Part shown: piece by piece, positions 47,888 to 63,047 of the stretch
Layout: each line of letters starts with the position of its first letter
How positions within the stretch are numbered: the first letter of the stretch is position 1
Source of the DNA: Microbacterium terricola
GTDB lineage: Bacteria; Actinomycetota; Actinomycetes; Actinomycetales; Microbacteriaceae
DNA length: 64,000 nt
Direction of reading: 5' to 3'
Assembly (NCBI RefSeq): GCF_027943945.1
Contig: NZ_AP027141.1
Location: forward strand, 496,001-560,000
The notes under the pieces: model-generated
The model's input: the letters and a program-made list of their open reading frames with translations, nothing else
What the model was told of the DNA's origin: nothing
Database searches by the model: none
Translations under genes and position numbers: made by a program

Positions 47888-47904
47888 ATACCCCATGGGG
47901 GTAT
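47888..47904 (-). promoter_or_regulatory. CsoR operator upstream of copB
   Basis: ATACCCCATGGGGGTAT, differing from the copZ operator only in the central bases. Its right end is the exact point where the integrase reading frame begins to look conserved, so it also marks a recombination junction. Confidence 0.82.
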
Positions 47905-48305
47905 TCCAGCCGAAGACGCACGAGGTGCGATCGGTGCCCTACCCGGAGTTCCTCGAGCTGCCGATCGCGAGGCTGTGCGAGGGCAAGCCGCGCGACGGTC
48001 TGCTCTTCGGTGATGGTGTCGGCTACCTCGGCCGTCCGCGCTCGTCGGGAGCGTCGCGATCATGGTTCATGACGGCACTGGATGCTGCAGGCCTCGAGCG
48101 GATGACCGTGCACGACCTGCGCCACACCGCCGCGTCGCTCGCGATCAGCTCGGGCGCGAACGTGAAGGCGGTGCAGCGGATGCTGGGCCACGCATCGGCG
48201 GCGATGACTCTGGATGTCTACGCGGATCTGTTCGACGACGACCTGGATACCGTGTCGGCGTCGCTGAACGAGGCGCGGAGCCGGGCGATCGCCTCTGGTC
48301 AGTAG
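47904..48305 (+). pseudogene. Tyrosine recombinase (phage-type integrase), C-terminal fragment
   Basis: 134 codons of the catalytic domain. The fragment begins at QPKTHEVRSVPYP, which includes the active-site Lys hairpin. It retains HDLRHTAASLAISSG (His and second Arg), LGHASAAMTLDVYADL (His and nucleophilic Tyr) and the C-terminal helix. The N-terminal core-binding domain and the first catalytic Arg are absent; the upstream sequence is the copB promoter. The fragment is therefore inactive. An ATG at 47895 could start it, but nothing suggests expression. Confidence 0.85.
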
Positions 48306-48337: not shown

Positions 48338-48673
48338 TCAGGCGGATACGTGGTGTCGGTCGGGTGCTTCGGACGTCGTCAGCACGACCCGCAAGCCCAA
48401 GGCGCGTGAGAGGCGATCAATCGTCGAGAGGGTGGGGTTTGCAACCCCGCGCTCGATCCGGCTGATCTCGCTCTGCTGAACACCTGACAGCTCGGCGAGA
48501 CGCGGCTGGGACAGGTTCAGCTCGTTGCGCCGGGCCGCGAGGTCCGCGCCCAAGGCGAGGTGGCTCTCACGCTCGTCGGTGAAGACCTGTTCGGCGACCT
48601 CGTACGCCGCCCGCTGGCCGGCGCTCCAACGAGACTTGCGCCTGCTGGCGTAGTCCTCGAACGAGGTGGTCAT
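48338..48673 (-). CDS. XRE-family HTH antitoxin (HigA-like)
   Basis: 111 residues. A helix-turn-helix lies at ~45-100 (LGADLAARRNELNLSQPRLAELSGVQQSEISRIERG, read in parts, then NPTLSTIDRLSRALGL). The first 40 residues are basic and helical, probably the toxin-contacting part. ATG with GGAGA upstream. It lies 63 bases downstream of a HigB-like toxin gene, the toxin-first order of HigBA modules; it should repress the operon and neutralise the toxin. Confidence 0.8.
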   Translation of the reverse strand: MTTSFEDYASRRKSRWSAGQRAAYEVAEQVFTDERESHLALGADLAARRNELNLSQPRLAELSGVQQSEISRIERGVANPTLSTIDRLSRALGLRVVLTTSEAPDRHHVSA

Positions 48674-48736
48674 GATGTCTCCAGATGTGCCTCAGCGTAA
48701 GCCGTCACCCGATTATGGGTCATGGCACATAGAACC

Positions 48737-49168
48737 TCAAGACCGCTTCTGTTGTTCCTTCCACCTCTTCAGCAAGGATCGCGCCTTCGTGATCTCACGT
48801 TGCTGCCGCCTCGGGGACGGATCCCTCCTCTTGTCGTAACCGCTCAGGATCAGAACGATCCTGGAGCCGTGAAAGGTGCAGAAGACGCGAAGGAGAACCT
48901 CTCGATGCGGGGTCTTGATGTCGTCTGGAAGATCGGTCTCGTCGAGTCCGGCAGCACTGTAGATGGCTGAAAGAGATCGGCGCACACGGAACTCGAACAG
49001 TCCCTCGCCGAGCGCCTTGCCCCACTCGCCATTGCAGATGTCCTGGCCCAGAGGCTTCAAGAAATGATCGATGGCCGCGAACAGAACAACTTCCTCGTAC
49101 CGCCCGAGCTTCTTGACGAAGCGATCGAACTGCTTCGCATCGAAGAGTTCGACGGTCCAGTTGCTCAC
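48737..49168 (-). CDS. HigB/Gp49-like toxin (RelE/ParE superfamily)
   Basis: 143 residues. FEFRVRRSLSAIYSAAG, then EVLLRVFCTFHGSRIVLILSGYDKR and DPSPRRQQREITKARSLLKRW, is the phage Gp49-like/HigB signature; members cleave mRNA on the ribosome. GTG 49168 is chosen because TACGAT lies exactly six bases upstream; the open frame extends further but reads into non-conserved sequence. An insert around DETDLPDDIKTPHRE separates two core strands. Partner antitoxin follows. Confidence 0.78.
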   Translation of the reverse strand: MSNWTVELFDAKQFDRFVKKLGRYEEVVLFAAIDHFLKPLGQDICNGEWGKALGEGLFEFRVRRSLSAIYSAAGLDETDLPDDIKTPHREVLLRVFCTFHGSRIVLILSGYDKRRDPSPRRQQREITKARSLLKRWKEQQKRS

Positions 49169-49174
49169 TTGTTG

Positions 49175-49180
49175 ATCGTA
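49175..49180 (-). promoter_or_regulatory. -10 hexamer TACGAT of a leaderless promoter
   Basis: On the minus strand, six bases before GTG 49168 of the toxin gene. Confidence 0.55.
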
Positions 49181-49244
49181 GGCGGGAGGACTGACACGGA
49201 CGTCCTGACGCACCGGGGTGTCGATCTTCCTTTGGCGGCCTCGA

Positions 49245-49266
49245 AAAGTGTGGGCAAAGTGTGGGC
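49245..49266. repeat. 11-bp tandem direct repeat
   Basis: AAAGTGTGGGC twice in succession near the tRNA end of the island. May be an arm-type integrase site or part of a decayed integrase 3' end; not resolvable. Confidence 0.4.
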
Positions 49267-49290
49267 AAAACCACTTCTGACGAAACCACG

Positions 49291-49331
49291 AAGGGCCGCG
49301 ATCCCTTGTAAACACTGGGATCGCGGCCCTT
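49291..49331 (-). terminator. Hairpin downstream of tRNA-Met
   Basis: 15-bp perfect stem AAGGGCCGCGATCCC with an 11-base loop, seven bases past the tRNA 3' end; little T-rich tail on the minus strand. Confidence 0.7.
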
Positions 49332-50598: not shown

Positions 50599-51633
50599 AT
50601 GACCGAACCGATCATCGAAGCGCGCGGGCTCACCAAGCGCTTCACCGTGAAGAAGAAGACCGTCGAGGCCGTCACCGACCTCACCTTCCAGGTGGCCCGC
50701 GGCGAGCTCGTGGCCTTCCTGGGCCCTAACGGCGCAGGAAAGTCGACGAGTCTGCGCATGCTGACCACACTGATCCCGCCGACCTCGGGCACCGCGTCCG
50801 TCGTCGGCTTCGACATCCTCAGACAGCCGGCCGAGGTCCGCGCGCGCATCGGCTACGTCGGCCAGCTCACGAGCGGCAGCTTCGCCCAGCGGGTGCGCGA
50901 CGAGCTGATCAGCCAGGGCGCGTTCTACGGCATGGCCAAGCCGGCCGCCCGTGCCCGAGCGGACGAGCTGATCGAGTCGCTCGATCTCGCCTCGTTCGCC
51001 ACGCGCACGGTGCAGCAGCTCTCCGGCGGGCAGAAGCGCCGGCTCGATGTCGCCCTCGGACTCATGCACGCCCCGCCGCTGCTGTTCCTCGACGAGCCGT
51101 CCACGGGGCTCGACCCGCAGAGCCGCGCCAACCTGTGGCAGCACATCATCGATCTGCGGGCACAGCACGGCACCACCGTGTTCCTCACCACCCACTACCT
51201 GGAAGAGGCTGACCGCTACGCCGAGCGCGTGATGGTGATGGACAAGGGCCGCGTGATCGCCGACGACACCGCGAGCACGCTGAAGGCCGAGCTCGCCGGC
51301 GACGTCGTCACTTTCGGGTTCGACTCTCCCGCCGACGCCGATCGGGCGCTCGACGTCGTGCGGACGCTCACGGATCGCGATGTGCGACGGGATGCTGCGG
51401 CATCCGTCACCGTCACGGCCCCCGACGGCGACGCCCTGCTGCCCGCCGCCGTGCGCGCGCTCGACGCAGCAGGGCTGACCGTGCGCTCAGCGACGGGCGT
51501 GCCCCCGACGCTCGACGACGTGTTCCTCGCGCTCACCGGCCGCACCCTGCGCGAGACAGGCTCAGCGACCGATCCTGTGGAGCCGGATCCGGATGCAGGC
51601 GCACAGACCGAGAAGGCAGGAGCAGACCGATGA
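50599..51633 (+). CDS. ABC exporter ATP-binding protein, DrrA-like
   Basis: 344 residues: Walker A GPNGAGKST, signature LSGGQKRRLDVAL, Walker B LLFLDEPSTGLDP, H-loop LTTHYLEEADRYAERV. The C-terminal ~100 residues match the DUF4162-type tail of daunorubicin-resistance ATPases, including TLDDVFLALTGRTLRE. The last ~30 residues include RETGSATDPVEPD, encoded around a partial copy (51555-51565) of the dispersed repeat. Overlaps the permease by four bases. Drug or lipid export is the family role; cargo unknown. Confidence 0.88.
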   Translation: MTEPIIEARGLTKRFTVKKKTVEAVTDLTFQVARGELVAFLGPNGAGKSTSLRMLTTLIPPTSGTASVVGFDILRQPAEVRARIGYVGQLTSGSFAQRVRDELISQGAFYGMAKPAARARADELIESLDLASFATRTVQQLSGGQKRRLDVALGLMHAPPLLFLDEPSTGLDPQSRANLWQHIIDLRAQHGTTVFLTTHYLEEADRYAERVMVMDKGRVIADDTASTLKAELAGDVVTFGFDSPADADRALDVVRTLTDRDVRRDAAASVTVTAPDGDALLPAAVRALDAAGLTVRSATGVPPTLDDVFLALTGRTLRETGSATDPVEPDPDAGAQTEKAGADR

Positions 51634-52412
51634 CCGCCCCCATCGACACCGCCGTGCGGGCCAATCCGGCCCGCGACACCTGGCATGTCCTCACACGTGA
51701 GCTCAAGCCGGTCGTGCGCGACCCATTCACGCTGATCTTCAGCCTGGTGCAGCCGCTGATCTTCCTCGGCCTGTTCGGGCCCCTGCTGGTCGGCCAGTCC
51801 GGCGCCCCCGTCGGCGAGACGCTGCAGTGGTTCGTGCCGGGAGTCCTGGTCATGATCGTGCTGTTCGGCACGGGTGCCACCGGCTCCAACCTGCAGTACG
51901 AGATGATGACCGGCTCGCACGAGCGCACCCTGGTGGCGCCGCTGGCGCGCTCCTCGCTGCTCGTCGGCCGCGCCCTGAAGGAGATCGCGCCGATCGTGGT
52001 GCAGTCGCTGATCATCGTGCTCATCGCCTGGCCGTTCGGGTTCACCGTGAACCCCGCGGGCATGGTGATCGGGCTCGCACTCCTCGCGGTGTTCGGCGTG
52101 GGGCTCGGCTCGCTCTCGTACACCCTCGCTCTGAAGACCAAGGACCGCGAGTGGCTGTTCTGGGGTGTGCAGCAGACGCTGATCTTCCCGCTGATGATCC
52201 TCTCCGGGATGCTGCTGCCCCTTGATGAGGGGCCCGGCTGGATGCAGGCGGTCGCGGCCGTCAACCCGGTCAACTGGGTCGTGCAGGCAGAGCGCGCGCT
52301 GTTCGTCGGCGACCTCGGGGCATCCGCGGTGATGTGGGGCTGGATCTCGGCGCTCGCCCTCGCCGCGGTCGGGTTGTGGGCCGGGGTCCGCGCGATCCAC
52401 AAGAGCAGCTGA
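51630..52412 (+). CDS. ABC-2 type permease, DrrB-like
   Basis: 260 residues, six hydrophobic helices. Family landmarks: TRELKPVVRDPFTLIFSLVQPLIFLGLFGPLL, divided at residue ~30, EMMTGSHERTLVAPLARSSLLVGRALKEI (in parts, the coupling loop) and LSGMLLPLDEGPGWMQAVAAVNPVNWVV. Pairs with the DrrA-like ATPase; both are probably repressed or activated by the divergent WYL protein. Confidence 0.88.
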   Translation: MTAPIDTAVRANPARDTWHVLTRELKPVVRDPFTLIFSLVQPLIFLGLFGPLLVGQSGAPVGETLQWFVPGVLVMIVLFGTGATGSNLQYEMMTGSHERTLVAPLARSSLLVGRALKEIAPIVVQSLIIVLIAWPFGFTVNPAGMVIGLALLAVFGVGLGSLSYTLALKTKDREWLFWGVQQTLIFPLMILSGMLLPLDEGPGWMQAVAAVNPVNWVVQAERALFVGDLGASAVMWGWISALALAAVGLWAGVRAIHKSS

Positions 52413-52466: not shown

Positions 52467-55400
52467 ATGACGACGGCGCGACGGCGAGGCATCCTCGCTG
52501 TCGCGACCGCCATGGTCCTGGTGGCCGTGAGCGTCGGGGTCGGCGTCGTCGTCGGCGACGCGCTCGGCATCCGCACGGAGCCCTCGGCGCAGATGACACC
52601 GGCCGACCCGGTCGTCCCCGCGGTCGCCGAGGCCGTCGCGCCGCCGGAGTTCACCTCGATCACCGTCCCCGACGGCGCACGTTACGAGGTCGCCGTGGCC
52701 GAGCTGCGCGACGCGGTCGCCGACGCCCCCGCACGCGTCGGCCAGGCGACCCTCGCCGTCACTCCGCCACCCGCTGACGGCGACGCCGCCGCCGATGACT
52801 ACCGGGTCACCGGGGACGCCGCATCCCTCGTCATCGACGCGGGGCAGGAAGCCGGCGCGGTACGGGCGATCTACGACCTCGCCGCCGCGATCCGGGCCGG
52901 CCGGGCGGTCACCGACCTGGTCGGGGAGGCGACGGCATCCGCTCTGTCGTTCCGCATGGCCGACCTCGGCGCCGTCGGGGTCGACCCGGATCCGGCCCAG
53001 TGGGTCGACGGCACCGACTACTCGCACGTGTCACGCGCCTTCGAGGACGTGTATCTCGAGGACGACCCGTACATCGACCAGGCCGCGCTCGCCGAGGCGT
53101 ACGACGACTGGGACGAGTTCCTGGGGGCGATCCTCTCCGACGGCTACAACGCCGTCGCCTGGCCGGGTTTCGTCGAATTCACCACCTTCGCCGGTGTCGA
53201 CGGCGTCTACCCCGACGGCGACCCGCACGTCGCGCGGGCGCTCGCTCTGCGTGAGGCGTTCGGGCCGTTCTGGGATCGCGCCCAGGACCTCGGGGTCAAG
53301 GTGTTCCTGCGCACGGACATGCCCACCCTGACGCCCGAGCTCGAGGACTACCTCGTCGACCGCTTCGGCTCGCTCGACACCGAGAACCCCGAGCTGTGGT
53401 CCGTCTACACGGCGGGGCTCCACGAGCTGTACGAGGCCGAGCCCGCGCTGTCCGGCATCCTCATCCGCATCGGCGAGGGCGGCGAGGTCTACCAGGAGCC
53501 CGGCTGGGACTACTACTCGGCGATCGCGGTGCGCACGACCGCCGCGGTGCGCACGATGCTGGACGCGTACACGGCGCAGGCCGAGCAGACCGGGCGCGAG
53601 GTGGTCTTCCGCACCTGGAGCGTCGGCATCGGCGACGTCGGCGACATGCACACGGACGCGGCGTCGTATCACGCCGTGCTCGAGGGGCTCGATTCGCCCG
53701 CGCTGATCGTGTCGACGAAGTTCACGCTCGGTGACTTCTACAGCTGGCTGCCCCTGAACGACACGCTCGCGACCGGCGACCAGCGCAGGATCGTGGAGTT
53801 CCAGAGCCGGCGCGAGTTCGAAGCGTTCGGGTCGTTCGCGAACGACCTCGGTCCCGAGTACCAATGGGCGCTCCAGACGCTGCTCGCCGACAACCCGCAG
53901 ATCGAGGGCATCTGGACCTGGACGCAGGACGGCGGCCCGTGGCGGGCGGGTCCGATGTCGCTGTACCTCAAGGCCGGCTTCTGGCAGCTGTACTCGCTCA
54001 ACACCCAGGTGTCGGCGGCGCTCGCCCGCGACCCCGGGACCGACGTGGGGCAGGTCACGGTCGACTGGGCGCGGGAGTGGTTCTCGAGTGATCCGCGGAC
54101 CGTGACGGCGATCGCCGAGGCGATGGCGCTGTCGCGGCAGGCGATCACACAGGGGCTGTACCTGGAGCCGTTCGCCGAGCAGCGCACCTTCGCGATCGGG
54201 CTCGAGCCGCCGCCTCAGATGTGGCTGTTCGAGTGGGACATCCTCACCGGAGACTCGGCGACGCTCGACGTGCTGTACGCCATCATCGGGGGCGACCGTG
54301 TCGACGAGACGATCGCGCTCGGGAAGGATGCCGTCGCCACCGCGGAGGACATGCTCGCGCTCGTCGAGGGCACCGACCCCGACACCTGGCACGACCCCGC
54401 TCTGCGGGAGGCGTTCACGAGCGCCCTCGCCTACGAGGCCGACACCCTGAGACTGCTCGCGTCCTACCGGGAGATGTTCCTCCGTCAGGCGCAGTGGCAC
54501 GACACCGGCTCGGCCGACGTGCACGCCCAGTGGGAGACGGCGCGCGACGCCTACATGGCGCTCGCCGACGAGCACCTCGCGGCCTACCAGGGCGACGTGG
54601 ACCACCCCGCGTGGAACCTCACCGCGGCCGAACTCGGCGTCCAGCGCGCCGACCGCGACCTGGCGATGGCATGGACCGCACGCGTGCTGCTCGTGCTCGC
54701 GCTGGCGTGGCTGTTCATCGGTATGCTGGCGACCCGCACCAGCCTCGTCGGCAAGCCGGGGGCGGCGGCCGCGCGGGCATCGTGGGTGGCCTCGACCCGG
54801 CCGTGGCGTGCTCGCGAATCGACACTCGGGATGCTGACGCTCGACCAGGTGCTGATCCTCGGCGTGCCGGCAGCCCTGCTCATCGCCACCCGGGCGGTGC
54901 AGACGTCGTTCCTGTCGTGGACGCAGCTCGCGGTTGTCCTCGGCGCGTGGGCGGTGTTCGCGCTCATCGCGCGCCTGCTGCTCGGATCGGGAAGATCGCC
55001 GTGGCCGCTGATCGCGTCCGTCGGCGGCGTCGTGGTGCTCCGCTGCATCGTCACGCTGTTCGCGCTGTCGTTCACAGGGCCCGGCGGCTACTGGTTCGCC
55101 TTCTGGACCGACCCCGTGCTTCGCGTGGTCTACATCGCCGTCGCGTTCTCACTGTTCGTGTGGGTGTTCATCGCGGCGGGCTGGGCGATGTCCGTGCAGA
55201 TAGGCCGGCGGCGCGCGACCGGCGTCGTCCTCGGTGCGGTCGGTGCAGGGCTCGCCGTCCCGTCCCTCGTCGTGGCGGTCGTGGGACTCGAGCAGGCGCT
55301 CACCGTCTGGAACGACCAGATGGGGCTGCTTCCGTGGGGGCTGTCCCGCATCCTCGGCATCACGACCTATCTGGAGATCCCCGGCGACGCCGCGTGGGTC

Positions 55401-55478
55401 GCCTTCGGCGTCGGCCTCGCGCTCGCGGTCACGGGCGTGCTGCTGTCACTGCGGTGGGGTCGTCGAGACCGGGTCTAA
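52467..55478 (+). CDS. Membrane-anchored glycoside-hydrolase-like protein with C-terminal polytopic domain
   Basis: 1003 residues. A signal anchor (~9-33) exports the chain. Residues ~55-150 form an alpha/beta domain ending AVRAIYDLAAAIRAG, like the N-domain of GH67 and GH20. Residues ~165-600 look like a TIM-barrel related to alpha-glucuronidases (GH67): DGYNAVAWPGFVEF, LGVKVFLRTDMP, ILIRIGEGGEVYQEP, GIWTWTQDGGPW. A helical region follows, then six or seven membrane helices from ~735 to 995. The fusion to a polytopic membrane domain is unusual. Enzymatic activity and substrate are inference. Confidence 0.6.
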   Translation: MTTARRRGILAVATAMVLVAVSVGVGVVVGDALGIRTEPSAQMTPADPVVPAVAEAVAPPEFTSITVPDGARYEVAVAELRDAVADAPARVGQATLAVTPPPADGDAAADDYRVTGDAASLVIDAGQEAGAVRAIYDLAAAIRAGRAVTDLVGEATASALSFRMADLGAVGVDPDPAQWVDGTDYSHVSRAFEDVYLEDDPYIDQAALAEAYDDWDEFLGAILSDGYNAVAWPGFVEFTTFAGVDGVYPDGDPHVARALALREAFGPFWDRAQDLGVKVFLRTDMPTLTPELEDYLVDRFGSLDTENPELWSVYTAGLHELYEAEPALSGILIRIGEGGEVYQEPGWDYYSAIAVRTTAAVRTMLDAYTAQAEQTGREVVFRTWSVGIGDVGDMHTDAASYHAVLEGLDSPALIVSTKFTLGDFYSWLPLNDTLATGDQRRIVEFQSRREFEAFGSFANDLGPEYQWALQTLLADNPQIEGIWTWTQDGGPWRAGPMSLYLKAGFWQLYSLNTQVSAALARDPGTDVGQVTVDWAREWFSSDPRTVTAIAEAMALSRQAITQGLYLEPFAEQRTFAIGLEPPPQMWLFEWDILTGDSATLDVLYAIIGGDRVDETIALGKDAVATAEDMLALVEGTDPDTWHDPALREAFTSALAYEADTLRLLASYREMFLRQAQWHDTGSADVHAQWETARDAYMALADEHLAAYQGDVDHPAWNLTAAELGVQRADRDLAMAWTARVLLVLALAWLFIGMLATRTSLVGKPGAAAARASWVASTRPWRARESTLGMLTLDQVLILGVPAALLIATRAVQTSFLSWTQLAVVLGAWAVFALIARLLLGSGRSPWPLIASVGGVVVLRCIVTLFALSFTGPGGYWFAFWTDPVLRVVYIAVAFSLFVWVFIAAGWAMSVQIGRRRATGVVLGAVGAGLAVPSLVVAVVGLEQALTVWNDQMGLLPWGLSRILGITTYLEIPGDAAWVAFGVGLALAVTGVLLSLRWGRRDRV

Positions 55479-56334: not shown

Positions 56335-58833
56335 ATGAGTGACGGTTCCACGCCCATCATCGTCGGCGGGGATGCGGGCCCGCGCGGCGGACGCCCCGAC
56401 GAAGACCTTCTCGAGGGGCTCAACCCCCAGCAGCGCGAAGCAGTGACCTACCGCGGTCCGGCGCTGCTGATCGTCGCGGGCGCCGGATCGGGCAAGACCA
56501 GCGTGCTGACGCGGCGCATCGCATCCCTCCTCCGCGGCCGTGAGGCGTGGCCGAGCCAGATCCTCGCCATCACCTTCACCAACAAGGCCGCAGGCGAGAT
56601 GCGCGAGCGCGTCGCCCACCTCGTCGGCGACGCGTCGCAGGGCATGTGGATCTCGACGTTCCACTCCGCGTGCGTGCGGATCCTCCGCCGCGAGGCCGAG
56701 CAGTTCGGCTTCACCAAGGCGTTCACGATCTACGACTCCGGCGATTCACGCGCCCTCATCAAGCGGCTCGTGAAGCAGCATGAGGCCGACGCGTACGGCC
56801 TCACCCCAGCGTCCGTGCAGGGCAAGATCTCCAAGCTCAAGAACGAGCTCGCCGATGCCGAGTCGTACGCGCGGTCGGCGAATCTCTCCGACCCTGCCGA
56901 GCGGCTGTTCGTCGAGATCTTCGGCGACTACCAGCGCGAGCTGCAGCGGGCGAACGCGTTCGACTTCGACGACCTCATCGGGCAGGTCGTGTTCCTCTTC
57001 CGCGCCTTCCCTCACGTGGCTGACGTCTACCGCCGCCGGTTCCGGCACATCCTGGTCGACGAGTATCAGGACACGAACCACGCGCAGTACGCGCTCATCC
57101 ATGAGCTGACCCGGCCGCTTTCCGGCGCATCCGGAGCCGAGCCCGTCGAGGCGTCGAATGGGATGATGATCTGGGGGCCGGACACTTCGACGGGCTCAGT
57201 GAGCGGGGGCGGCTCGGCAAGCGGTGGCGGGTCCGAGTCCGACGGTGCATCGCTCACCGTCGTCGGTGACTCCGACCAGTCGATCTACGCGTTCCGCGGC
57301 GCCGACATCCGCAACATCAGCGAGTTCGAGCGCGACTTCCCCGGCGCGCGCGTGGTGCTGCTCGAGCAGAACTACCGCTCCACGCAGAACATCCTGACCG
57401 CCGCGAACGCCGTGATCGGCAACAACTTCGACCGCAAGGACAAGAAGCTCTGGACCGACGTCGGCGCGGGCGAGAAGATCATCGGCTTCACCGGCTACTC
57501 GCAGCACGACGAGGCGCAGTTCATCGCCGACGAAGTCGACGCGCTGCGACGCGCCGGCATCGACTACTCCGAGATGGCCGTCTTCTACCGCACCAACTCG
57601 CAGTCCCGTGCGATCGAAGAGATCTTCATCCGGGCCGCCGTGCCCTACAAGATCATGGGCGGCACGAAGTTCTACGAGCGCGCCGAGATCAAGGATGCGC
57701 TCGCGTACCTCATCGCGGTCGCCAACCCGGCAGATGAGATGGCGCTGCGCCGCATCATCAACCGGCCGCGGCGGGGAATCGGCGACGTGACCATCGAGAC
57801 GATCGCGCGCTACGCCGTCGACGAGCGCATCACATTCCGCGACGCGCTCGCCAATTCGACCTCCCTCGGGGTCGGTCCGAAGATCCAGGCATCGATCGCG
57901 CACCTCGACGCCGTGCTCGCGGAGGCCTCCGCGCTGATGCTGCCCACGTCGGGCGAGCTCGCGCCGCCGACCGCCGTCGCCGACGGGCTTTCGCTCCTGC
58001 TCAACAAGTCGGGCTACCGCGACGCTCTGCGTGCGAGCAAGGACGCGCAGGACGAGGCGCGGCTGGAGAACCTCGACGAGCTGGTCGCCGTCGCCCGCGA
58101 GTTCGCGCGCAACAACCCGGAGGGCACCGTCCTCGACTTCCTCACCGAGGTCGCACTGGTCTCCGATGCGGACGACCTGGAGGATTCGTCCGGCTCGGTC
58201 TCGCTCATGACGCTGCACACCGCGAAGGGCCTCGAGTACGACGCGGTGTTCCTCACCGGGGTGGAGGAAGACCTCATTCCGCACCGCATCTCGGCGGGCG
58301 AGCCCGGTGGGCCGCAGGAGGAGCGGCGACTGTTCTACGTGGGCATCACCCGCGCCCGGAAGCGCCTGTACCTGTCGCTGGCGATGACCCGGGCGCAGTT
58401 CGGCGAGGTATCGGTGGCGATGCCGAGCCGGTTCCTGCAGGAGATCCCGGTCGAGCTCATGCACTGGCGTCAGTCGCCGGGCGACGTGAACTCGCGCGGC
58501 GGCACGCAGTCGCGCGCGCTCAACGCGCGCCGCGGCGGGTTCGGCGGCTCAGGTGGCTCGGGCGGGTCCCGGTACGGCGACGATCTCGTTCCGCTGCCCA
58601 GGCGCGAGCGCTCGGGCTCCATCGAGCAGTTCGCGAACCGCATCCCGGCCAAGGTGCGCGACAACGGCGACATGGAGCTCGCCGCGGGCGACCGCATCCG
58701 CCATGACGATTTCGGCGAAGGACGCGTGGATGCTGTCACCGGCGAGGGCGCGAAGCGCGTCGCGCATGTGCGGTTCGACAAGGTCGGCGCGAAGAAGCTG
58801 CTGATCAAGATCGCGCCGATCGAGAAGGTCTGA
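56335..58833 (+). CDS. pcrA: ATP-dependent DNA helicase PcrA/UvrD
   Basis: 832 residues. SF1A helicase: Q-motif LNPQQREAV, Walker A GAGSGKTSVLTRRI, motif II DEYQDTNHAQY, motif III LTVVGDSDQSIYAFRGAD, motif V/VI (TLHTAKGLEYDAVFLTG, EERRLFYVGITRARKRLYL). The C-terminal Tudor-like RNA-polymerase-interaction domain (DDFGEGRVDAVTGEG) is typical of PcrA. Residues ~263-306 are a foreign Gly/Ser-rich insert between motifs II and III, encoded by an inverted pair of the dispersed repeat. Functions in repair and replication restart. Confidence 0.94.
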   Translation: MSDGSTPIIVGGDAGPRGGRPDEDLLEGLNPQQREAVTYRGPALLIVAGAGSGKTSVLTRRIASLLRGREAWPSQILAITFTNKAAGEMRERVAHLVGDASQGMWISTFHSACVRILRREAEQFGFTKAFTIYDSGDSRALIKRLVKQHEADAYGLTPASVQGKISKLKNELADAESYARSANLSDPAERLFVEIFGDYQRELQRANAFDFDDLIGQVVFLFRAFPHVADVYRRRFRHILVDEYQDTNHAQYALIHELTRPLSGASGAEPVEASNGMMIWGPDTSTGSVSGGGSASGGGSESDGASLTVVGDSDQSIYAFRGADIRNISEFERDFPGARVVLLEQNYRSTQNILTAANAVIGNNFDRKDKKLWTDVGAGEKIIGFTGYSQHDEAQFIADEVDALRRAGIDYSEMAVFYRTNSQSRAIEEIFIRAAVPYKIMGGTKFYERAEIKDALAYLIAVANPADEMALRRIINRPRRGIGDVTIETIARYAVDERITFRDALANSTSLGVGPKIQASIAHLDAVLAEASALMLPTSGELAPPTAVADGLSLLLNKSGYRDALRASKDAQDEARLENLDELVAVAREFARNNPEGTVLDFLTEVALVSDADDLEDSSGSVSLMTLHTAKGLEYDAVFLTGVEEDLIPHRISAGEPGGPQEERRLFYVGITRARKRLYLSLAMTRAQFGEVSVAMPSRFLQEIPVELMHWRQSPGDVNSRGGTQSRALNARRGGFGGSGGSGGSRYGDDLVPLPRRERSGSIEQFANRIPAKVRDNGDMELAAGDRIRHDDFGEGRVDAVTGEGAKRVAHVRFDKVGAKKLLIKIAPIEKV
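57121..57252. repeat. 132-bp repeat-derived insert within pcrA
   Basis: Inverted arms GAGCCCGTCGA (57139-57149) and TCGACGGGCTC (57187-57197), followed by a (GGC/AGC)-rich tail encoding SGGGSASGGGS. The arms match the tsaD-type repeat with one difference. The length is divisible by three and keeps the helicase frame. Confidence 0.75.
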
Positions 58834-58997: not shown

Positions 58998-61900
58998 ATG
59001 CTTGCTGCGCGCGGACACGCTGCGAGGACATGGGTGGCGCGGCTGGGAGCCGTGGCGCTCGCTGCGGGCTTGCTGACGGCCGTTTCGCCGCCGGCCTTCG
59101 CTGACGATGCGCCGGCCGACCCGGCTCGCGCCGGAGCGCAGGATGCCGGCGCGTCCGCCGAGCCGACCGGCGAACCCTCCACCCCCGCAGACCCGGTGCC
59201 GGCGGCGTCCCCCACGTCGTCGGCACCGCCTACCGAGACCGACCGAGGGACTCGCCGGGCTCCCGTCGCCCCTGATGAACAGGGCGACGGGCCGTGGACG
59301 ATCAGCGGCACGGTGACCGGCGGTGGTGGGCCGATCGAGGGGGCTTATGTCACCCTGCAGATCTGGAATGACCAGTTCGACTTCTGGAACTACTACGGCA
59401 GCGCGCCGACGGATGAGAACGGGCTCTACGCGATCTCCGGGGTCGAGACCGGAACCTACGGCGTGAAGTTCGAGGGGCCGTGGGAAGGTCCCTTCGCCAC
59501 CGAGTACTGGGAGAACAAGCCCACCGAGGCGACCGCGCAATCCTTCCCGGTGTCGGGGAACCTCACGCGCAGCGCAGAGCTGGCCGTGGGCGCAACGATT
59601 GCGGGGTCCGTCACCGGGCCCGGGGGTCCGCGGGCGAACAGCACGGTGAGCCTCTACTACGGCAGCGAGACGAATCCCGCCGCCTACGCGTATGCCGGAG
59701 ATGACGGTGCCTATGTCTCCCCGGCTCTGCCGGCCGGGACGTGGAAGGCGAAGTTCGACGACGGCGACTTCACCCTGATGACCGAATGGTGGGACAACAA
59801 ACCGGATGCTGCCGCCGCGACGCCGATCCCGCTCACCGCCGGGCAGCACCGCACAGGCATAAACGCGCTGCTCTCGGCCGGCGCGACCATCAGCGGTACG
59901 GTCACGGTTGCGGGTGGCGCGGTCGGCGTCGCCGGCGCGAACGTGACCCTCTATGAGATCACCGGCGGCGACGCGCTGTGGACGGACTCGGCGTCGACCG
60001 CCGGCAACGGCGCGTTCAGCTTCACCGGGCTGGCCCCCGGCACGTACACGCTCGAGACGCAGGCGCCCTCCGGCAGCGCGATGCTGAGCGAGTACTGGGA
60101 CAGCAAGTACGTCAGCGACCCGCTTGACGCCGACGCGTTCGCCCTGGCGTCCGACGCCACACTGACCCGGAACGTGGCGCTGCTCGCGACGGCGACCGTC
60201 TCGGGGACCGTGACCGACACGGCCGGCGACCCGGTGTCCGGCGCGACCGTGACTCTGACTCCGACCGAAGGAACGACAGGCAACCCGAGATCGGTGACGA
60301 CCTCGGCGACCGGCGACTACTCGCTCACTCAGGTGCGACCGGGCGACTACCTCCTGCGGGTCAAGCACACCGGCGATCCGACGCAGGTACCGATCTCGGT
60401 GGCGAGCGGTGTCGACCAGGATCGCGACTTCGTCCTGCCCGCCGGCGCCACCGTGACCGGCACGGTGACCCGACCGGGCGGTGCGCCCGTAGCCGGAGCG
60501 ACGGTGGAGGTGTGGTCGCCGTCAGGACAGGTCGCGACAGGCGTCACCGCCTCGAACGGCACCTACCGGATCAAGGGACTGGCTGCGGGCTCGTACACCC
60601 TGCGGTTCGCGCCCGCCGACTTGGACACCGTGTTCGCCGGCGGCGCGACGAGGCTCGCCGCCGCCACCTTCTTCACGCTGGCCGCCGACGCCACCAAGAC
60701 GGTGAACCAGGCGTACACCGGCGTCACCGTGAACGGCACCGTCACCGCGGGAGGCACTGCGCTGACCGGACAGACGGTGACGCTCATCGACAAGAACGAC
60801 GGCGCCGTGCGGTCCCTCACCACCCCCGCCGGCGGTGCGTACTCCTTCACCGGGGTCGCCCCCGGCACGTACACCCTGCACGTCGCGGCGGGCTCCTCCG
60901 TCGACTACCTCGAGTGGTGGCTCGGCGGCGGGACGGAGTCGGCGACGGCGAAGACACTCGCGGTGTCGGCGGCGAACGTGACGCAGCCGATCGCACTCGT
61001 GACCGGCGGGAAGATCACCGGATCCGTGAAGCTGCCCAACGGCACGGCCACCGATGACGTCTACGTCACGGCGTACACCTGGGCGGCGAACGGCTCGGTG
61101 GGCTTCACCCAATCGCGCATGCCTGCCGCAGACGGAACGTTCGCGTTCTCGGGCCTCATCGCGGGGGAGTACACCCTCCAGTTCGACCCCACCGACTCGA
61201 CGTACCCGGACTTCTGGCTGGGTGGTGCGACGACCGCGGCGAGCGCGACCCACGTGAGCGCGGCGAACGGCGCCACGACGGCCACCGGGATGACCACGTT
61301 CCTGCCTCGCCCAACCGGCGGCATCAGCGGCACGATCGCGGCGGCAGGGGTGTCGAACTGGTCGGGGGTGTTCGTGACCGCGCAGAACACATCGACGTTC
61401 CGCACGCGCTCCGGCGTCGTGACCTCGGGCAGCTACGCCATCCAGAATCTTCCCGCCGGCACCTACAAGGTGCAGGTCACCGGAGTGCCCGGATTCGCCG
61501 ACGGCTGGTTCGACGACGACGAGACGCTCGGGGCCGCGGCGACGATCACCGTGGCAGCGGCGACGGTCACCGGGAAGAACATCACGCTGCTCCCCAACAA
61601 CGCGACGCTCACGGGCACGGTGACCGGCGGCGGCGGCCCTGTCGCCGACGCGACCGTGATGCTCTCCCGCATCTACGGGGACGGCTCGAGCCGCTACGTC
61701 ACCAGCGTGGACACCGGCGCGGGTGGGACGTACGCCTTCACCAACCGTCTCCGCGCCGGCGGCAACTACCGCGTCGACGTCGACACGTTCGATGAGTCAT
61801 TCGTGCCGCAGTCCGTGACGCTGACCGCCGTCGCAGGTACGCAGACCAAGAACATCTCCCTCGTGCAGGCCGGCGCCCTGCACGGCAAGCTCACCGAGCG

Positions 61901-63047
61901 CGGCACGTCGACGCCGATCCCCGACATGGACGTGTTCGTCTACAAGACGACGTCGAGCTTCCCCACCGAGGTCGGGGTGACCCTCGAGGACGGCACCTAC
62001 TCGGTGGGCGGTCTCGCGCCGGGCACGTACAGCATCCGCTTCGGAGCGCACGGATTCGACGGGCCGGCCGGAGGTGACTCGTACTACGCCCCCGAGTGGC
62101 TCGGCGGACAGGTCGTGCGAGCCGAGGCGACCACCTTCACGGTGACCGCCGGTGGGGACGTGGCCGTCGCTGCCGGTCAGCTGGGGCGCGCCGGCGTCAT
62201 CTCGGGCAACATCAGCGGGGTGCCGGAGGCCGGGACGACGGTATGGCTGGACGATGCGCTGCTCCGGCTGTACACCACCGCGGGAGTCGAGGTGGCGAGC
62301 GGCTTCGCCACCGACGGCGAGCTCGGCCGGTACTCCGTGCCCGTCAAGCCGGGCACCTACAAGATCTGCGTGGGGAACGACTCATACAAGGGGACACCGC
62401 TTGCGGGCGGCTGCCGGATCACGAGCACCACGCTGGCGGGCACGCCCGCAGGCGGTTCGGCACTGACCGTCGCGGCCGGCGCGGACCTGAAAGACACGGA
62501 TCTCCGGCTCGGCGTTGCCCCGCCCCCGGCGCTGACGTCGAAGACGCCGACGATCTCGGGGACCCCGGTCGTCGGAGCGACACTGACGGCGAAGCCGGGA
62601 GCCTGGACCCCCGGCACCGCCTTCACCTACCAGTGGTACGCGAACGGCACCGCGATCACTGCCGCGAAGGCGTCGACGCTCAAGCTCGCAGCCGCGCAGA
62701 AGGGCAAGCAGATCACCGTCAAGGTGACCGGCAAGAAGTCGGGCTTCACCTCGGTGGCGAAGACGAGCGCGAAGACGCTGAAGGTGGCGGTGGTCGCGAC
62801 GCCGACGATCTCGGGCACCGCGAAGGTCGGGAAGACGCTGACGGCGAAGCCGGGGACGTGGACGGCGAAGACGACCTTCACGTACCAGTGGTACGCGTCA
62901 GGCAAGGCGATCAGCAAGGCCACGAAGTCGACCTTCAAGCTCACGAGCGCGCAGAAGGGCAAGACGATCACGGTGAAGGTGACCGGGAAGCTGTCGGGCT
63001 ATCCGACGGTGTCGAAGACCTCGAAGGCCACCGCCAAGGTCGGCTGA
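58998..63047 (+). CDS. Large secreted protein of 11 Ig-like (carboxypeptidase-regulatory-like) repeats
   Basis: 1349 residues. Sec signal at 1-35 (SPPAFADDA), a Pro/Ala/Thr linker to ~97, then eleven ~85-110-residue beta-sandwich units. Most open ATISGTVTGxGG, contain GxYSFTGLAPGTYTL and close EYWDNKP- or EWWLGG-like before the next unit. Two C-terminal ~85-residue repeats (PTISGT-x-VGxTLTAKPG, FTYQWYA) are rich in Lys. There is no LPXTG or membrane helix, so retention may be by the basic repeats binding anionic wall polymer (inference). Likely adhesive or scaffold. Preceded by GGGGGG before ATG. Confidence 0.82.
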   Translation: MLAARGHAARTWVARLGAVALAAGLLTAVSPPAFADDAPADPARAGAQDAGASAEPTGEPSTPADPVPAASPTSSAPPTETDRGTRRAPVAPDEQGDGPWTISGTVTGGGGPIEGAYVTLQIWNDQFDFWNYYGSAPTDENGLYAISGVETGTYGVKFEGPWEGPFATEYWENKPTEATAQSFPVSGNLTRSAELAVGATIAGSVTGPGGPRANSTVSLYYGSETNPAAYAYAGDDGAYVSPALPAGTWKAKFDDGDFTLMTEWWDNKPDAAAATPIPLTAGQHRTGINALLSAGATISGTVTVAGGAVGVAGANVTLYEITGGDALWTDSASTAGNGAFSFTGLAPGTYTLETQAPSGSAMLSEYWDSKYVSDPLDADAFALASDATLTRNVALLATATVSGTVTDTAGDPVSGATVTLTPTEGTTGNPRSVTTSATGDYSLTQVRPGDYLLRVKHTGDPTQVPISVASGVDQDRDFVLPAGATVTGTVTRPGGAPVAGATVEVWSPSGQVATGVTASNGTYRIKGLAAGSYTLRFAPADLDTVFAGGATRLAAATFFTLAADATKTVNQAYTGVTVNGTVTAGGTALTGQTVTLIDKNDGAVRSLTTPAGGAYSFTGVAPGTYTLHVAAGSSVDYLEWWLGGGTESATAKTLAVSAANVTQPIALVTGGKITGSVKLPNGTATDDVYVTAYTWAANGSVGFTQSRMPAADGTFAFSGLIAGEYTLQFDPTDSTYPDFWLGGATTAASATHVSAANGATTATGMTTFLPRPTGGISGTIAAAGVSNWSGVFVTAQNTSTFRTRSGVVTSGSYAIQNLPAGTYKVQVTGVPGFADGWFDDDETLGAAATITVAAATVTGKNITLLPNNATLTGTVTGGGGPVADATVMLSRIYGDGSSRYVTSVDTGAGGTYAFTNRLRAGGNYRVDVDTFDESFVPQSVTLTAVAGTQTKNISLVQAGALHGKLTERGTSTPIPDMDVFVYKTTSSFPTEVGVTLEDGTYSVGGLAPGTYSIRFGAHGFDGPAGGDSYYAPEWLGGQVVRAEATTFTVTAGGDVAVAAGQLGRAGVISGNISGVPEAGTTVWLDDALLRLYTTAGVEVASGFATDGELGRYSVPVKPGTYKICVGNDSYKGTPLAGGCRITSTTLAGTPAGGSALTVAAGADLKDTDLRLGVAPPPALTSKTPTISGTPVVGATLTAKPGAWTPGTAFTYQWYANGTAITAAKASTLKLAAAQKGKQITVKVTGKKSGFTSVAKTSAKTLKVAVVATPTISGTAKVGKTLTAKPGTWTAKTTFTYQWYASGKAISKATKSTFKLTSAQKGKTITVKVTGKLSGYPTVSKTSKATAKVG

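Follow-up and report, generated by a model that had tools for sequence, protein, structure and literature searches.

An outward-facing GH67-like domain on a seven-helix membrane module in Microbacterium terricola, and its repeated loss within the genus

The GH67 alpha-glucuronidases are glycoside hydrolases (GH) that remove 4-O-methylglucuronic acid from xylo-oligosaccharides, their natural substrate being fragments of 4-O-methylglucuronoxylan. Their mechanism is inverting, with catalytic acids that serve as general acid and base, and with basic residues at the ends of barrel strands 4-6 that hold the uronate. The GH20 and GH84 enzymes use a substrate-assisted mechanism. Here we have analyzed a gene of Microbacterium terricola located in a window of 64,000 nucleotides (contig NZ_AP027141.1, positions 496,001 to 560,000). 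Its open reading frame encodes 1003 amino acids (aa) from an ATG codon (window 52467-55478, + strand), comprising an N-terminal anchor, a large outside domain (the ectodomain) and seven C-terminal helices (the module). An initial annotation, made from the sequence alone, had described a GH67-like barrel lying between an anchor and a polytopic domain and exposed to the outside of the cell, an observation that AlphaFold, Foldseek and the loop charges have confirmed. More informative than this fusion is the repeated loss of the ectodomain: the recurrent in-frame removal of the enzyme, with the module kept and its outside face then drifting, is the striking new element. We assign a probability of about 0.55 to the reading that the protein is a membrane-docked, outward-facing uronidase-like hydrolase with a GH67/GH138-like barrel, and that its module holds a second, inside-facing job.

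Fold and catalytic residues of the ectodomain

The AlphaFold2 model of the whole protein, built with 39 sequences, has a mean predicted local distance difference test score (pLDDT) of 85.6 and a predicted template modelling score (pTM) of 0.84. It contains, in this order, an anchor helix (residues 3-33), a beta-alpha domain (61-155), a (beta/alpha)8 barrel (162-521), helices up to residue 718, and the membrane helices. The barrel strands were modelled at residues 162-166, 229-233, 278-284, 330-334, 378-382, 413-418, 440-448, and 479-486. The parts of the protein are the following:

52467..55478, + strand: whole gene, 1003 aa, anchor plus GH67-like ectodomain plus seven-helix module
52473..52565, + strand: residues 3-33, N-terminal signal anchor, N-terminus inside (hydropathy, AlphaFold)
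52647..52931, + strand: residues 61-155, N-terminal beta-alpha domain of the ectodomain (AlphaFold secondary structure)
52950..54029, + strand: residues 162-521, (beta/alpha)8 barrel, GH67-like (AlphaFold, Foldseek, hhalign)
54045..54620, + strand: residues 527-718, helical C-terminal part of the ectodomain (AlphaFold)
54621..55448, + strand: residues 719-994, seven-helix membrane module (AlphaFold)

Hydropathy marked one segment near the N-terminus (11-29) and seven towards the C-terminus (between residues 737 and 993), at the same places as the AlphaFold helices, and the number of C-terminal helices, previously given as six to seven, is therefore exactly seven. The first helix of the module is unbroken from residue 719 to 757 in the model, beginning inside the ectodomain. 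The inside parts (N-terminus, loops 758-790, 840-846, and 909-918, and C-terminus) contain together 16 K/R vs. 2 D/E, and the outside loops 813-817, 868-883, and 939-974 contain 1 K/R vs. 5 D/E. Since these charges obey the positive-inside rule, the ectodomain was placed outside the cell. The ectodomain itself (residues 34-718; window 52566-54620) is strongly acidic, with 112 D/E vs. 40 K/R.

When the model was compared with PDB structures by Foldseek, ranks 1-11 were GH67 alpha-glucuronidases (E 2.4e-13 to 1.7e-11, 12-14% identity) and ranks 12-16 were GH138 enzymes (E 1.8e-11 to 2.1e-10), followed by GH84 and GH20. The predicted model has the N-terminal domain, the (beta/alpha)8 barrel and the helical C-terminal part that define the GH67 fold, and it also agrees with GH138, for which the fold alone was compared. 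The TIM-barrel proposed in the initial annotation is thus present, and the enzymatic half of that observation is well supported by the predicted fold. The sequence evidence for kinship with GH67 agrees with the fold evidence, but weakly. The best match of the alignment profile among PDB sequences was GH67 (E 0.0098), profile positions 507-555, taken with the helical C-terminal part, matched GH67 in the PDB, and the same profile found GH67 genes in genomes G638 (E 3.5e-5) and G454 (E 8.1e-4), both confirmed as PF07488+PF07477 by Pfam. Residues 58-165 gave a weak profile match to a GH20 enzyme (E 0.3). Two strongly conserved stretches, 491-506 and 577-597 (PW.AGP; GLEPPP.MW.FEWD), are low-confidence blocks of the model (pLDDT 46-65).

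Alignment by MAFFT in three modes placed R334, K418, D423, E444, and E450 opposite K263, K341, D346, E368, and E374 of a GH67 protein (L042). Mutant sequences in the PDB fix the GH67 numbering (E285N is L042 E267; E386Q is L042 E368), and therefore D423, E444, and E450 lie at the positions of D364, E386, and E392 of the Geobacillus stearothermophilus enzyme, positions 364 and 392 being assigned by spacing. These catalytic-centre Asp/Glu residues are not only aligned but also invariant: R334, E337, R382, K418, D423, E444, and E450, and also D284 and H395, are identical in 75/75 distinct full-length sequences (window included; loci L031, L026, and L067 excluded), so that the conserved acids anticipated in the initial annotation are kept throughout. 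The principal residues are:

53466..53468, + strand: R334, at the end of strand 4, opposite the Lys of GH67 VKADSE, invariant 75/75
53475..53477, + strand: E337, probable general acid (E285 in G. stearothermophilus; E292 in Cellvibrio japonicus), invariant 75/75
53610..53612, + strand: R382, end of strand 5, GH67 counterpart unsure, invariant 75/75
53718..53720, + strand: K418, at the end of strand 6, opposite a conserved Lys of GH67, invariant 75/75
53733..53735, + strand: D423, opposite a GH67 Asp (by spacing, D364 of G. stearothermophilus), invariant 75/75
53796..53798, + strand: E444, aligned with GH67 E386, invariant 75/75
53814..53816, + strand: E450, aligned with the Glu of GH67 TQEY (E392 by spacing), invariant 75/75

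E337 is probably the counterpart of the GH67 general acid. Given the roles that the matching acids and basic residues have in GH67, a uronic-acid substrate is predicted for the ectodomain by analogy.

Loss of the ectodomain and constraint on the module

The gene is the sole match at E≤0.001 in its own genome (3,251,508 bases). A search of genome contigs yielded 37 distinct relatives, mostly full-length and 48-73% identical, all from actinobacteria and mostly from Microbacterium, the other genera being Agromyces, Leifsonia, Salinibacterium, Protaetiibacter, Homoserinibacter, Terrabacter, Cellulomonas, Dactylosporangium, and Paractinoplanes; L026 is truncated by a contig end and L031 is of the full-length type with a broken frame. 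Whole genomes were then searched with the alignment profile, scoring the best first-look candidates (four per genome in the genus sample), to which "no match" refers throughout. Matches were found in 3/296 genomes of a phylum sample and in 22/297 of an order sample, three of the latter being weak and partial (G638, which is the GH67 gene, G623, and G770). No relative was found in the viral contigs searched, also with a GH67 query, and the plasmid search returned a single distant match, in Persicobacter.

Of the 198 genomes in the genus sample, 80 had a match and 118 had none at E≤0.001. The full-length protein was present in 37 genomes and a module-only copy in 44, with G489 having both (module-only L083; full-length G489:C12:287284-290304). 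Apart from G489, no separate ectodomain was detected among the scored candidates of the module-only genomes. Sequences were fetched for 43 of the module-only loci (all but that of G498; the full-length copy of G489 was likewise left out), and none of the 43 had an ectodomain match at E≤1e-10, the hydrophobic anchor being kept in 41/43 and the uvrD gene lying downstream on the same strand in 40/43. The clearest case is L070, where the anchor and the motif GIRTEPATQM are followed by a few residues and then by the start of the module as in the full-length proteins, about 670 residues being gone. Some module-only copies (L108, L113, and L114) are themselves short or broken.

Outside the genus, all the module matches lie within open frames of at least 1010 codons (15 genomes and two more), and the fused form is thus most simply taken as ancestral. 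A tree of the module (112 rows, 39 module-only) required 4 changes between forms, at least 2 of them forced. This tree left out L026 and L067, which had no module hit (L026 is cut by its contig and L067 ends with its contig), L031 for its broken frame, L108, L109, L113, and L114 as short or broken, L065 and L066 for their late-starting module hit, and identical sequences. A tree of the neighbouring uvrD gene, built from the rows with near-complete, distinct UvrD and independent of the module's own relaxed columns (59 rows, 35 module-only), required 10 changes, at least 5 of them forced, a number that gene exchange between species could inflate; in both trees, the changes are not necessarily all losses.

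The same-locus orthologues with and without the enzyme constitute a natural control experiment, in which three loops of the module have to be compared:

54738..54836, + strand: inside loop, residues 758-790 (PGAAAARA.W....RPWRA.E)
55068..55115, + strand: outside loop GPGGYWFAFWTDP, residues 868-883
55281..55385, + strand: outside loop WNDQMGLLPWGLSRILGI, residues 939-973

The outside loops 868-883 and 939-973 are highly conserved solely when the ectodomain is present, and the inside loop 758-790 is conserved, within the genus, with or without it. From the full-length rows of the genus to the module-only rows, mean conservation fell from 0.91 to 0.51 outside and went from 0.85 to 0.82 inside. 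Pairwise identity in helices, outside loops, and inside loops was 0.50, 0.74, and 0.44 in 27 full-length rows outside a genus set of 46 rows listed by hand (the 27 include eight in or nested in Microbacterium: L013, L016, L019, L035, L036, L038, L049, and L134), 0.49, 0.74, and 0.42 with six nested rows dropped (21 rows), and 0.53, 0.38, and 0.77 in 39 module-only rows. Since helix identity is near equal (0.50 and 0.53) and the order of the loops is opposite, overall divergence does not explain the result. The ratio of regional nonsynonymous divergence (dN) to whole-domain synonymous divergence (dS) rose from 0.165 to 0.81 outside and dropped from 0.39 to 0.20 inside, dS being partly saturated, so that these ratios serve for the outside-inside contrast alone. 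Among the residues fixed or nearly fixed in the full-length proteins and lost in most module-only ones are R727, R730, G873, Y875, T881, E942, D950, G958, I962, and L963; T813 and N949 are kept in about half of the module-only proteins. The plain reading of these alignments is that the outside loops would serve the ectodomain and that the inside loop would serve something else still under selection.

The module modelled alone with 65 sequences reached a pLDDT of 90.6 and a pTM of 0.88. It matched no PDB chain (best E 0.29) and no model of the viral library BFVD at E≤0.001 by Foldseek, which is not a proof of a new fold, and a Pfam scan of two module-only proteins returned no family.

Proposed function and rival explanations

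The enzyme would most likely be an inverting exo-alpha-uronidase, and its substrate a glycan or glycolipid on the outer side of the cell membrane from which it would remove a terminal uronic acid. The ectodomain would be tied to the membrane at both ends, by the N-terminal anchor and by a C-terminal helix that runs without a break into the first module helix. The outside loops 868-883 and 939-973 of the module may hold the ectodomain or shape the path of the substrate. Low pLDDT values were obtained for outside loop 941-970 and for two ectodomain stretches of strong conservation (491-510 and 571-600); loops that move or that pack against each other would fit this pattern, which proves nothing. 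The second function of the module would face inside through loop 758-790; as this function would not need the enzyme, we propose that the module survives deletion of the ectodomain. If the substrate is a uronide of the cell's own envelope, the protein would point to surface trimming of a kind so far unrecognized in Microbacterium and its relatives.

Several results weigh against this reading. The Foldseek matches to GH67 have a large root-mean-square deviation (7.9-9.0 A) and a moderate TM-score (0.56-0.60 by target length), and an hhalign comparison with eight GH67 sequences, covering 405 columns, gave a probability of just 10.3% despite an E-value of 0.003, the alignments being thin. The whole protein matched 0 families of Pfam and NCBIfam at E≤1, and the search of the PDB with the single sequence gave no match at E≤1 either; a zero in Pfam is not equated with "no family", but it is because these searches were empty that the ectodomain, as modelled, is GH67-like and not GH67 by sequence. 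E337 stands one residue beside the GH67 acid in all three MAFFT alignments (ungapped register), the partner of R382 is the WRAF Arg of GH67 in hhalign and an Arg 11 residues on in MAFFT, and the Persicobacter relative, from Bacteroidota, has no counterpart of E450. In the module-only forms, the helix columns are also less conserved (0.80 to 0.64), and the Mann-Whitney test of the per-column drop, outside vs. inside (P 2.4e-14), overstates certainty because columns of one protein are not independent. Clustering of the neighbouring genes revealed no partner in common with the loci of Agromyces, Leifsonia, Terrabacter, Cellulomonas, and Dactylosporangium. A sugar-nucleotide dehydrogenase was useless as a co-occurrence marker, as it gave hits in 198/198 genus genomes (185 over the cut-off) and does not discriminate.

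The constraint on the outside loops solely with the ectodomain, and on the inside loop regardless, together with the unbroken helix 719-757 joining both halves, would also suit a receptor in which a glycan outside the cell is bound or cleaved by the barrel and the module relays this state through loop 758-790 to a cytoplasmic partner; the module-only forms would then be rewired receptors, with a different input or no input at all. We consider this rather unlikely: the protein has no signalling domain, no neighbouring regulator recurs beyond part of Microbacterium, and the full set of catalytic acids in 75/75 sequences exceeds the needs of a receptor that only binds. That the module-only forms are relics in decay, the module being a mere anchor, is suggested by the 118 genus genomes without a match, by the broken or short copies (L108, L109, L113, and L114), and by outside loops that are nearly unconstrained. 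It is an unlikely explanation of inside loops that hold 0.77 pairwise identity at a helix identity of 0.53, of an inside dN ratio of 0.20 against 0.81 outside (relative values, dS being partly saturated), and of an 18-row clade of the uvrD tree that retains the module-only gene throughout.

A module that binds a lipid-linked glycan, or flips it, and passes it on to the barrel could account for the aromatic-rich outside loops GPGGYWFAFWTDP and WNDQMGLLPWGLSRILGI and for a conservation that tracks the ectodomain, but the lack of any matching solved transporter or lipid-handling fold (best E 0.29) and a module that outlives the enzyme make such a hand-off quite improbable. We regard as very improbable that the ectodomain is a pseudo-enzyme, its catalytic acids being invariant, or a plain GH67 enzyme debranching plant xylan. 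The fold match and the known action of GH67 on 4-O-methylglucuronoxylan fragments speak for the latter. Nevertheless, the protein does not reach the curated cut-off of PF07488, its own genome has 0 PF07488 matches vs. 4/14 control genomes positive, genomes G094 and G454 hold the present gene alongside a true GH67, and no xylan gene was detected among the few neighbours scanned with Pfam.

We therefore keep the reading of an outward-facing uronidase-like enzyme on a module with a separate inside role. A bolder version, which we offer as tentative and rather doubtful, is that it represents a new class of membrane enzyme, in which a self-working seven-helix module acting inside hosts, through two outside loops, a removable uronidase ectodomain repeatedly lost in frame (about 670 residues) in one genus. 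The contrast between both forms separates the residues that may serve the enzyme (two outside loops) from the others (inside loop), and thus both functions are directly testable.

Genomic surroundings and comparison with known systems

The gene is surrounded by genes for a WYL regulator, an ABC-2 exporter, PPK2, and UvrD, the main neighbours being:

50599..52412, + strand: ABC-2 type exporter pair (ABC_tran, ABC2_membrane), upstream, partnership not supported
56335..58833, + strand: UvrD/PcrA helicase, downstream, an independent marker of the locus with no part in the function

The exporter and the regulator are adjacent as initially annotated, but the proposed coupling of cleavage to them is unsupported: some of the Microbacterium loci, full-length and module-only alike (e.g., L002 and L071), have the ABC pair upstream, and no partner recurs across genera. 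Coupling to transport has no support either, as no solved fold resembles the module, which is also retained where the hydrolase is missing; coupling to sensing keeps some likelihood. That interpretation stands for the outside GH67-like barrel between anchor and helices, and is unsupported for the link to exporter and regulator. The uvrD gene recurs in Microbacterium (22/35 full-length and 40/43 module-only loci fetched), and an adenylate cyclase, a MscS-like channel, a CHAT protein, and a sodium/proton exchanger each stand beside single members. The neighbourhood, of which few genes were scanned with Pfam, was rejected as a functional guide, since the clusters do not recur across genera.

Two further features of the window were observed. 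A phage-type integrase fragment (PF00589) stands beside an HTH_3 gene and a small open reading frame that looks RelE/HigB-like (window 47895-48305, + strand, and 48341-49315, - strand). Flanked by a P-type ATPase gene and by that of the WYL regulator, the fragment and the toxin-antitoxin-like pair have the appearance of an island scar. Downstream of uvrD, window 58998-63047 (+ strand) encodes a 1349-aa protein with several CarboxypepD_reg-like repeats.

In the literature searched, we found no paper on the 1003-aa protein, and "GH67-like" and three similar terms were absent from the papers searched. A paper on GH115 (PMC9063842) suggests Asp303 as the general acid and does not contain the term GH67, and is of no help for the present protein.

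Among the described systems, the GH67 alpha-glucuronidases (1h41/1gqi from C. japonicus, named there "Pseudomonas cellulosa"; 1k9d/1mqp from G. stearothermophilus) are the best PDB match both by fold and by profile, with the same domain order and aligned catalytic-centre acids. Unlike them, the present protein is not recognized by PF07488 and shares only 12-14% identity in the fold alignments. GH67 enzymes are soluble and have no transmembrane module, whereas this protein has seven C-terminal helices; the eight GH67 proteins compared have no such module, and 7/8 have no segment at a Kyte-Doolittle hydropathy of at least 1.8, L039 having one borderline. GH138 (BP0997, titled as targeting rhamnogalacturonan II), compared by fold alone, is the second-best fold match and was not listed by the profile search of PDB sequences. 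GH20 and GH84 have a related barrel and N-terminal domain with a weaker fold match (E 4.3e-9 or weaker), and their substrate-assisted mechanism is not expected here. What has been found is an unassigned GH67/GH138-like enzyme, joined to a membrane module without a solved match. The Persicobacter protein (L167:2551-4287, plasmid CP012860.1) is 22% identical over 279 columns and has counterparts of E337, R382, K418, D423, and E444. It has 578 aa, a lipoprotein-like N-terminus (by eye) and no helix module, adjoins a porphyranase, and matches no Pfam or NCBIfam family. As it keeps most of the motif, the ectodomain seems to be part of a wider group without a Pfam or NCBIfam family, and the Persicobacter protein is a candidate for a new GH family.

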